Assembly (NCBI GenBank): GCA_937920515.1
Contig: CALEUG010000007.1
Coordinates: 1 to 64,000 of the forward strand
Source of the DNA: an uncultured bacterium
Lineage (GTDB): Bacteria; Acidobacteriota; Aminicenantia; Aminicenantales; Saccharicenantaceae
Length of the DNA: 64,000 nt
Direction: 5' to 3'
The notes under the pieces were generated by a model that was not told where the DNA came from, made no database searches, and saw only the letters and a program-made list of their open reading frames with translations. The first letter of the stretch is position 1; every line of letters begins with the position of its first letter. Below are positions 57,477 through 59,687 of this stretch, piece by piece. Position numbers and translations under genes: made by a program.

Positions 57477-57505
57477 TTGAAATTGTTATTGGAATTTGTT
57501 AAATA
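57477..57505 (+). promoter_or_regulatory. Promoter of the GAF gene, placed for a leaderless mRNA
   Basis: TTGAAA, 17 bases, TAAATA with TGT directly in front (extended -10). The transcript would start near 57512, within about two bases of the ATG at 57514. No Shine-Dalgarno sequence is present. Confidence 0.55.
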
Positions 57506-57513
57506 TACAGCCA

Positions 57514-58602
57514 ATGGAAGAGTTAAAGGGCGGGACCGGTTCCGAGCAGCTCCAGTCGTTTCCCACGGCCAGGTTTTTTGAAGCCACCAGGGAACTGGCG
57601 CTGGCCAGGGGTTGCGATGACCTTCTCCACCGGCTCTTAAAGAAAATTGATGAATTTTTCGGACCGGCGGTGATGGCTTTCCTGCTCAGAGACCTTGCCT
57701 CCCGCGACCTCAGATACGCCATATTAACTGGTGAAAGCGCTTCACATCTTCAGGACCGGATAATCCGGCGGGGAGAAGGAATCTGCGGCCTGGCCGCCGA
57801 AACCAACCAGAATATCATCATCTCCGACTGCAGCCGCGATCCACGCTTTAACCCCAGGGTGGACCACCTGCCGGGACTGGAAGTTTACAGCCTGATAGCG
57901 GTGCCACTGCGGGTTGAAAAAAAGGTTTTCGGACTGGTCGCCCTGTTCAACAAAAAGAACCGGAGGCAGTTTAACCTGGATGAATTCAAGCTGTTGCTGA
58001 GCCTGGTTACTTTTGCCGAATTGCTGCTGGAAAGGCAGGTGCTGCGGAAGCACATCAGCGAGCTGGAAGAATTCGACCCGCTGACCGAGGCCTACAACAC
58101 CCGGGCTTTCGTCAATTATTTCCAGCGAGAGGTGGCCCGCTGCGAGCGCTACGGCATCGACCTGTCACTGCTCAAGGTGGACATAGATTACTACGAGAAG
58201 ATTATTCAGACCTTTGGCCAGGAGGCCGGGGCCAGGGTCGTTACCAACCTGTCTTTTATCCTGAGAAAAACCACCAGGAAGGTGGACCTGGTAGCCCGGA
58301 TAGGTGAGTACGAATTCATGATCATGCTGCCCAACACCAACCGGGCCGGGGCCGAAAAGCTCCGCGAAAGAATAATCAAGATACTGGAGAACCAGAACCT
58401 CAGGGCCACCGGAATTCCCTACACCGTGACCATAGAAGTCTATTCGGAAAGCGGCCAGACGGTTTCGGCCCTGTCCAGGGTCTCAGAGGTCAGCACCTGC
58501 CTCAGCCAGGTTAACAAGAAACATCTGCGCAGGAAATACCCGACACCCGGAGAGGAGCTGGAGGAAAACATACTCAGCACCCTGTTTTCCGGGCAGAAAT
58601 AA
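57514..58602 (+). CDS. GAF domain protein with a degenerate GGDEF domain
   Basis: 362-residue signalling protein. A GAF domain (about 20-180, with GEGICGLAAETNQNIIISD and LIAVPLRVEKKVFGLVALFNKKN) is followed by a GGDEF-like domain (about 190-350: EFDPLTEAYNTRAF, LLKVDIDYYEKI). The active-site loop reads GEYEF instead of GGDEF, so diguanylate cyclase activity is unlikely. The ATG at 57514 is preferred; a TTG at 57496 is open. It lies 59 bases before a DHH-like gene. Confidence 0.85.
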   Translation: MEELKGGTGSEQLQSFPTARFFEATRELALARGCDDLLHRLLKKIDEFFGPAVMAFLLRDLASRDLRYAILTGESASHLQDRIIRRGEGICGLAAETNQNIIISDCSRDPRFNPRVDHLPGLEVYSLIAVPLRVEKKVFGLVALFNKKNRRQFNLDEFKLLLSLVTFAELLLERQVLRKHISELEEFDPLTEAYNTRAFVNYFQREVARCERYGIDLSLLKVDIDYYEKIIQTFGQEAGARVVTNLSFILRKTTRKVDLVARIGEYEFMIMLPNTNRAGAEKLRERIIKILENQNLRATGIPYTVTIEVYSESGQTVSALSRVSEVSTCLSQVNKKHLRRKYPTPGEELEENILSTLFSGQK

Positions 58603-58661
58603 AACTGGCACCGAAATCCTGACCCGGTGCCTCAAATTTGACTTAAAGAGCGGACGGAGCA

Positions 58662-59687
58662 ATGGAAGTTATTTTCCAGTTCGCACCCTATGGACAGGAA
58701 TTTGAACCCCGGCCAGCCACCCTGGTCCTGGACGTCGGGCTGAAGACCGTTCCGGGGGTTGTCGACCACCATCAGCCCGAGGCCGAAGCCGAATGCGCGG
58801 CCTCGCTGGTGGTAAAGCACCCGGAACTGGTCCTGGGGCACCTGCCGGAACCGGTCGAAAAACTGACCATCATCACCCACCGCCTGCCCGATTTTGATGC
58901 CGTCAGCGCCATCTTCTTGAGCCTGAAGCTTATAGAACTGAGGCAGGTTGATCCGGCCCTGCAGAAAATTGCCGCCTACGCCCGAATGGTTGATTCGGCC
59001 ACCATACCAAAAAATGTTGAGTTGAGTTCCACTCCATACGCCCTGCTGCGGGCCCTGTTCGTGGCCATTCAGAAACCCGAGGAGGAAGCCAGCCTGGAAA
59101 GGGTGCAGGAAGGGTTGAGAATGCTAAGGCTCCTGCACGAGCAGGCCAGCCTGGGCCGGGATATAACGGATTGCCGCCTGGTTTTCCAGGGAATCGACCG
59201 CTACTTAAAAGCCATGCACCGGGTGGAAGACGATTATTTCAACTACCTGGAGGACCTGGAAAAAGCCGAGCAGGTTCAGCTCCATCTTCCCCTGAGCCAG
59301 GGTCAGGGCCGGGAAATCGTGGACGGACTCCTGGTGCAGAATCCAAAAAGTTTTTTGCTGAAAGAATGGGCTCGCCGCGATGTCTTTAATTCTCCCCTGG
59401 GCCGTGGCTTTTCTTTTCTTCTGACCAATCTGGGAAACCGCCGCTTTATAATCGGGGTGGATCCGGAAGCCGGGGTCAACCTCCGGGGACTGGGCAGCCT
59501 GCTAAACCGGCTGGAAAAAGAAAAGAGGGAAAGGCTCGGAAGGCCAGTCACGGAGCGCTGGTACGAAGGCAACTGTCCCTTCTTTGACTACCGGATTATA
59601 GATTCACCGCAGGACGGACCGGCTCTCACCCACCAGGAAGTGGTGGAAGCCGTTATGGATTTCAGCCGGCGGGTACAGTCAGGCTGA
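58662..59687 (+). CDS. DHH-family-like hydrolase with permuted motifs
   Basis: 341-residue protein that looks like a DHH-type phosphodiesterase rearranged. Motif II (LVLDVG, Asp24) and motif III (VVDHHQ, Asp35-His36-His37) come first; motif I (THRLPDFDAVSA, His73, Asp77, Asp79) comes after. In DHH proteins the order is I, II, III. The C-terminal half (about 190-341) has no GGGH motif of DHHA1. CGGAG precedes the ATG. It stands after the degenerate GGDEF gene. A manganese phosphodiesterase on a cyclic dinucleotide or oligonucleotide is possible but unproven. Confidence 0.6.
   Translation: MEVIFQFAPYGQEFEPRPATLVLDVGLKTVPGVVDHHQPEAEAECAASLVVKHPELVLGHLPEPVEKLTIITHRLPDFDAVSAIFLSLKLIELRQVDPALQKIAAYARMVDSATIPKNVELSSTPYALLRALFVAIQKPEEEASLERVQEGLRMLRLLHEQASLGRDITDCRLVFQGIDRYLKAMHRVEDDYFNYLEDLEKAEQVQLHLPLSQGQGREIVDGLLVQNPKSFLLKEWARRDVFNSPLGRGFSFLLTNLGNRRFIIGVDPEAGVNLRGLGSLLNRLEKEKRERLGRPVTERWYEGNCPFFDYRIIDSPQDGPALTHQEVVEAVMDFSRRVQSG

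Follow-up and report, generated by a model that had tools for sequence, protein, structure and literature searches.

Enzymes of the DHH superfamily act on second messengers, on nanoRNA, in DNA repair and on polyphosphate. Their canonical catalytic domains carry a β(I)-α unit at the N-terminus and present their motifs in the order I-II-III-IV, an order also seen in the alignment made here. RecJ, which can trim abasic-site ends, is a larger protein of canonical order whose own motif I (FGDYDVDG) lacks the histidine. The yeast cytosolic exopolyphosphatase (2qb6) is a DHH enzyme of canonical motif order and DHHA2 type. GdpP combines TM, PAS, degenerate GGDEF, DHH and DHHA1 in one chain, and its joining of a degenerate GGDEF to DHH/DHHA1 is described in PMC11229311 and PMC9757072. 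For the NrnA of D. radiodurans (8IOO), PMC11229311 gives H34, D38, D40, D95, H121 and D171 as metal ligands and H122 as a possible phosphate holder.

The protein described here appears to hold counterparts of all these residues in a different chain order. It is encoded near the end of a 64,000-nucleotide stretch of DNA (the window, meaning the whole stretch analysed), and a sequence-only reading had put it forward as a DHH-like phosphoesterase with circularly permuted motifs. The features to which the text refers are the following.

57514–58602, plus strand: neighbouring GAF-GGDEF gene with the degenerate signature GEYEF (Pfam GAF and GGDEF), 59 bp upstream
58662–59687, stop codon included, plus strand: putative permuted-DHH protein, 341 aa, start ATG 58662
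58662–58847, plus strand: residues 1–62, with a strand, motifs II and III and the post-DHH helices, ahead of motif I
58722–58739, plus strand: motif II, LVLDVG, with D24 as proposed metal ligand; in 38/38 rows, aligning to canonical motif II
58758–58775, plus strand: motif III, VVDHHQ, with D35-H36-H37; in 38/38 rows, aligning to the canonical DHH
58848–58952, plus strand: residues 63–97, the β(I)-α unit, which canonical DHH domains carry at their N-terminus
58875–58901, plus strand: motif I, THRLPDFDA, with H73, D77 and D79, after II and III; in 38/38 rows
58989–59000, plus strand: likely motif IV, VDSA, with D111, which is in 38/38 rows
59259–59684, plus strand: C-terminal α/β domain, residues 200–341, from predicted secondary structure and conservation

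The gene is real and under purifying selection. Its dN/dS was 0.05–0.09 against five congeners with unsaturated dS and 0.08–0.22 against three more distant relatives, dS being saturated in 7 of 15 comparisons. An in-frame TAA lies at 58644–58646, and the frame opens just five codons ahead of the ATG, leaving no place for a second motif I upstream in the same frame; the 341-aa translation holds no second DHH motif either. Of 60 genomes from the order, 31 match the gene at E ≤ 0.001, its own (2.56 Mb, 92% complete) among them. These matches fall in 12 of 19 genomes of the genus, in none of the 15 from the rest of the family, and in 19 of 26 from other families, one of the 19 being a 37-residue contig-edge match only. 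The nearest named records with the gene are Candidatus Saccharicenans / Aminicenantes MAGs, at no more than 88% identity.

Relatives were collected from 44 loci. Of these, 35 are of Aminicenantes type, a few of them bearing other titles, and nine are distant. The window and 37 of the 44 loci make up a 38-row alignment (A2), in which identity to the window falls to as low as 26%. Left out were two close congeners (L021, L064), a frame broken by N (L029), two loci missed by the filter (L047, L050), one with an unclear start (L049) and one that is cut (L063). D24, D35, H36, H37, H73, D77, D79 and D111 are each identical in all 38 rows, and the order II-III-I-IV holds in every row both of A2 and of a 16-row alignment (A1). 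The sequence-only reading had placed D24 in LVLDVG, D35-H36-H37 in VVDHHQ and a block with H73, D77 and D79 after them; all were located as described. Its order II-III-I is borne out by the two alignments and by the reversed fragment alignments given below, and the metal ligands that it thought kept are indeed invariant, together with D111, which it had not listed. From its invariance and local resemblance, D111 is the likely counterpart of motif IV. The residue (in MVDSA) aligned near canonical motif IV only in a rearranged low-threshold alignment, and the motif IV fragment alone gave no significant alignment.

Set beside D. radiodurans NrnA, the window protein has equivalents of the six metal ligands (D111 as the likely sixth) and of the second histidine of DHH, a similar length, and an H-x3-D-x-D spacing identical to that of H34/D38/D40. 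Unlike NrnA, it runs II-III-I-IV, and D24 and H36 are 12 residues apart versus 26 between D95 and H121. The likeness to RecJ is local, LVISVDCGIKA ... ITDHHQPG in RecJ corresponding to LVLDVGLKT ... VDHHQP in the window.

The chain order was examined with hhalign, in which the family profile was aligned to a profile of 47 mixed canonical DHH domains of the RecJ and NrnA types, drawn from this order and from genomes in which the distant members occur. This set represents 47 of 51 loci (L104, L109, L115 and L116 had no frame that passed the filter), and two of its entries, L067 and L112, are the same gene. All hhalign E-values given here refer to a single pairwise comparison, not to a database search. 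In native order the family scored 36.9 (probability 57%) over 27 columns, covering motif I only. With residues 63–97 moved ahead of residues 1–62, the score was 64.8 (probability 96%, E 4.9e-9) and motifs I, II and III came into register with the canonical profile; 100 shuffles of columns 1–62 gave a mean of 38.5 (sd 2.1) and a maximum of 44.8. Aligned separately, the two fragments matched in the reverse of their chain order, residues 1–62 falling on canonical columns 72–103 (motifs II–III, E 4.9e-6) and residues 63–97 on columns 2–28 (motif I, E 3.5e-7). In a scan of 180 rearrangements, the best 15 all put motif I ahead of II–III. The 159 swaps classed as “other” had a mean of 39.1 (sd 5.0) and a maximum of 63.5; that maximum, cut 38/98, likewise puts motif I first and is grouped with them only because of the lower limit set in the classification.

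Native and moved versions were also compared at matched lengths with six profiles, and a gain was seen with the two most diverse of them and with none of the four narrow ones. Besides the mixed set, the profile of 29 NrnA-type domains gained, from 38.4 to 50.8, with a maximum of 46.8 over 60 shuffles; the two sets overlap, so the two gaining profiles are not independent. Scores did not rise on rearrangement against 18 RecJ domains (36.7 in either order), 14 full RecJ proteins (34.4 in either order), 19 full NrnA proteins of this order (25.5 in either order) or seven family II pyrophosphatases (22.6 native, 21.7 moved). Against both RecJ profiles, moving the segment brings motif I into the alignment as well (for example, 103 versus 72 columns), although the score is not higher. 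Shuffles against the 18 RecJ domains scored low (mean 16.5, maximum 25.8) because shuffling destroys motif III, and these values are no argument for the order.

AlphaFold, run on A2, returned a model with a mean pLDDT of 96.4 and a pTM of 0.92. Its elements are, in order, strand 2–8, strand 20–23 (motif II), motif III, helices 46–52 and 55–58, strand 67–73 (motif I), helix 78–93 and helix 98–111, which ends at D111; more helices follow to residue 201, and then the C-terminal α/β domain. Among the best 50 of 530 Foldseek matches in the PDB at E ≤ 10, one had E ≤ 0.001, namely 2qb6, the yeast exopolyphosphatase (E 4.9e-5, prob 0.97, 334 alignment columns, 14% identity). The superposition on 2qb6 was poor, with a query-normalised TM of 0.22 and an rmsd of 17.4. 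Four entries among viral predicted structures reached E ≤ 0.001, none of them named as DHH, and three entries named “DHH family phosphohydrolase” plus one exopolyphosphatase stood within the first 12 rows at E 1.1e-3 to 8.6e-3; query-normalised TM to the named viral DHH entries was low (0.29–0.35). A right fold with a broken superposition fits what would be expected when a sequential aligner meets a permutation, and is not proof of one. A sequence search of the PDB gave eight weak matches, the top four of DHH type and aligned at motif I (E 0.66–1.3).

The C-terminal domain seems to be of a kind of its own. Its residues invariant in A2 include D240, G249, W300-Y301, G303 and P316. In four of four hhalign comparisons with the C-terminal parts of NrnA- and RecJ-type proteins the probability of a DHHA1 match was at most 0.2%, and the GGGH motif of DHHA1 is absent from the translation, a further difference from NrnA. 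For DHHA2, the domain did not match a profile of seven family II pyrophosphatases (7 of 25 loci entered it, the motif filter dropping the rest), and PF02833 (DHHA2) was matched in none of 60 relatives, the window's own genome included. A single-sequence fold of residues 192–341 was poor (pLDDT 55) and was discarded. The domain may have a remote structural likeness to DHHA1, or one to PPX1. Since it is not recognisably DHHA1, kinship with NrnA or GdpP can be claimed for the catalytic half only.

The family is unnamed in the libraries scanned here. Pfam DHH (PF01368) scores the window protein at 15.8 bits, below its gathering cut-off of 28.1, with profile positions 2–32 on residues 68–99 (motif I); the same profile is met at E ≤ 1 in all 16 members of A1, with a best E of 1.2e-4. 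NCBIfam, PHROGs and PADLOC gave no match to the window protein; for the 16 A1 members, PHROGs returned three stray hits, the best at E 0.06. No relatives of the window protein were found in IMG/VR or phages, and none of one distant member in plasmids. A search of PMC full text, which covers few subscription papers or preprints, found no paper on a permuted or circularly permuted DHH enzyme; the permutation discussed in PMC7824862 concerns methylases. A role in defence was considered and rejected, as PADLOC had no match for the window protein, two long distant members or two of the partner proteins described below (one of them cut).

The nine distant loci stand in records titled Desulfatirhabdium, Thiohalocapsa, Caldiserica, Planktophila, Chryseobacterium, Flavobacteriales and Bacteroidetes. 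Five distant members have complete long genes, of 1335–1421 aa, and a simple hydropathy scan finds six or seven hydrophobic segments in the long members, all but one in the last quarter of the chain. In the Caldiserica/Bacteroidetes kind, a large partner gene adjoins in six of seven loci, its complete copies encoding 1117–1144 aa; in the remaining locus the permuted-DHH gene itself is cut off by the contig end. Two partners were scanned: an F5/8 type C domain is present in the one from L059, and the other was cut. The two-gene arrangement can be seen at L059:1312-9065 and also in L056, L060, L061, L062 and L063, all in Bacteroidetes and Caldiserica records. Among 296 sampled genomes of the phylum of L059, the family was present in one, the starting genome itself. 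In the Desulfatirhabdium record, a gene for a protein with a cNMP-binding domain (L053:4442-4954) precedes the permuted DHH gene by 16 bp. Record titles look doubtful for L030 (Clostridiales), L058 (Planktophila) and L060 (Chryseobacterium): L030 is like the Aminicenantes loci both in sequence and in the order of its genes, while L058 and L060 have similar genes in the same order yet are titled as different phyla.

Gene neighbourhood suggests two possible roles. Among the 35 Aminicenantes-type loci, the immediate upstream neighbour on the same strand is a GAF-GGDEF gene in 11 (all of the window's genus), a mutY-like gene in 17 and a DUF4340-like gene in 2; in the remaining 5 it is another gene or the upstream sequence is missing. 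The labels “DUF4340”, “gldF” and “gldG” for neighbours in the window are presumptive. In the window's genus the GAF-GGDEF gene is a probable operon partner. Its start was placed at the ATG of MEELKGG, since a stop lies just ahead of it in seven congeners; the TTG at 57496 is probably too far upstream to be the start.

One role would be that of a split GdpP-like pair, in which the GAF-GGDEF protein senses a signal and regulates a permuted DHH enzyme that degrades c-di-AMP or pApA. The two genes lie 49–90 bp apart on the same strand in 11 of 11 genus loci from named records (59 bp in the window), and the GGDEF signature is replaced by GEYEF, GEFEF, GESEF, GQNEF or EDDLF in all 12 genus rows, a degenerate GGDEF thus being associated with a DHH-type enzyme in this genus as it is within the GdpP chain. 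Diadenylate cyclase (PF02457) has matches in 56 of 60 relatives, the window genome included. Unlike GdpP, the putative pair is encoded by separate genes, with GAF in place of PAS and a permuted DHH part, and the window protein has no hydrophobic segment above 1.6. Distribution speaks against the pairing, as the GAF-GGDEF protein is in 18 of 19 genus genomes and the permuted DHH gene in only 12 of 19. Direct adjacency is never seen in the other 24 Aminicenantes-type loci (one without upstream sequence), and two of them have a 29–30% identical relative 3.5–3.9 kb upstream. Moreover, 54 of 60 genomes, and 29 of the 31 that carry the permuted gene, have canonical DHH genes of NrnA size (sorted by open-frame length, 189–365 aa), which means that a linear-dinucleotide hydrolase is usually present already. 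A split GdpP-like pair is regarded as rather unlikely.

A general replacement of NrnA was considered because the window genome holds a single canonical DHH match, a RecJ-sized frame of 623 aa; the idea was rejected on the same counts of NrnA-sized frames. In the window genome no NrnA-type DHH gene was found, and its diadenylate cyclase is represented by two partial, overlapping matches at the ends of contigs C5 and C36. Both observations may reflect assembly gaps, the genome being 92% complete.

The other role suggested by neighbours is that of a DNA-repair phosphodiesterase working with MutY, for example in the trimming of abasic-site ends, an activity that RecJ possesses. In 17 of the 35 Aminicenantes-type loci the next gene upstream, on the same strand, is mutY-like, and the gap is at most 20 bp in 13 of the 17, two of these being 4-bp overlaps (the gap in L049 was measured from the alignment start). 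One such neighbour was scanned and proved to be HhH-GPD plus NUDIX_4, which we take to be MutY, the others being assigned by BLASTP likeness. L031:3898-4995 is one of these 17 genes; in L044 there is an in-frame stop inside the mutY-like match. Set against this association, a close MutY is found in none of 19 genomes of the window's genus (E ≤ 1e-40), yet 12 of the 19 keep the permuted DHH gene. Across the order, 13 of 60 genomes have MutY but lack the permuted DHH gene and 14 have both, and the nine distant loci, several of them short, show no match to this MutY. Joint action with MutY is accordingly held to be unlikely.

An unrelated fold with a chance resemblance to DHH motifs would agree with the sub-threshold Pfam score (15.8 of 28.1 bits), the lack of an NCBIfam match, the low TM-scores and the four of six profiles without gain, but it is highly improbable given that all 38 rows keep the motifs of one superfamily unchanged, that rearranged scores with two diverse profiles lie above every shuffle, and that the top PDB match is a DHH enzyme.

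The reading preferred here is that the protein is a metal-dependent phosphoesterase of the DHH superfamily whose catalytic Rossmann-like subdomain is circularly permuted. Motif order, invariance, the rearrangement test and the predicted fold together make this quite probable. The permuted DHH-like phosphoesterase of the sequence-only reading is accordingly supported, by conservation in 38 of 38 rows, by a controlled rearrangement test and by a confidently predicted fold with a DHH enzyme as its top PDB match. As modelled, the permutation affects the N-terminal Rossmann-like subdomain only and not the whole protein: the β(I)-α unit with H-x3-D-x-D would have left the N-terminus and come to lie after the post-DHH helices, just ahead of the helix of motif IV. 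The resulting II-III-I-IV chain would be expected to rebuild the same two-metal site from H73, D77, D79, D24, H36 and D111, with H37 as phosphate holder, and the C-terminal α/β domain of its own kind would follow this permuted catalytic part. The ligands should then converge in space, and the enzyme would presumably be a two-metal phosphodiesterase that hydrolyses phosphodiesters with Mn2+. Judging from its active-site residues, the most likely activity would be on small nucleotides or nucleic-acid ends, with pApA, a cyclic dinucleotide or short oligonucleotides as candidate substrates.

It is fairly likely that this represents a natural circular permutation in the DHH catalytic domain, old enough to be found in Aminicenantes, Desulfatirhabdium, Thiohalocapsa, Caldiserica and Flavobacteriales/Bacteroidetes records, and that these proteins form an uncatalogued family with its own C-terminal domain, whose Bacteroidetes and Caldiserica forms have a hydrophobic tail of 6–7 segments and a large conserved partner gene. 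Because the active-site residues are kept while the chain order is shuffled, searches that depend on order would miss such a family, as illustrated by the sub-threshold Pfam match and the poor Foldseek superposition. If the reading is true, the DHH fold tolerates new termini, and the gene offers a directly testable enzyme in an order in which nearly all genomes (56 of 60) have diadenylate cyclase genes.
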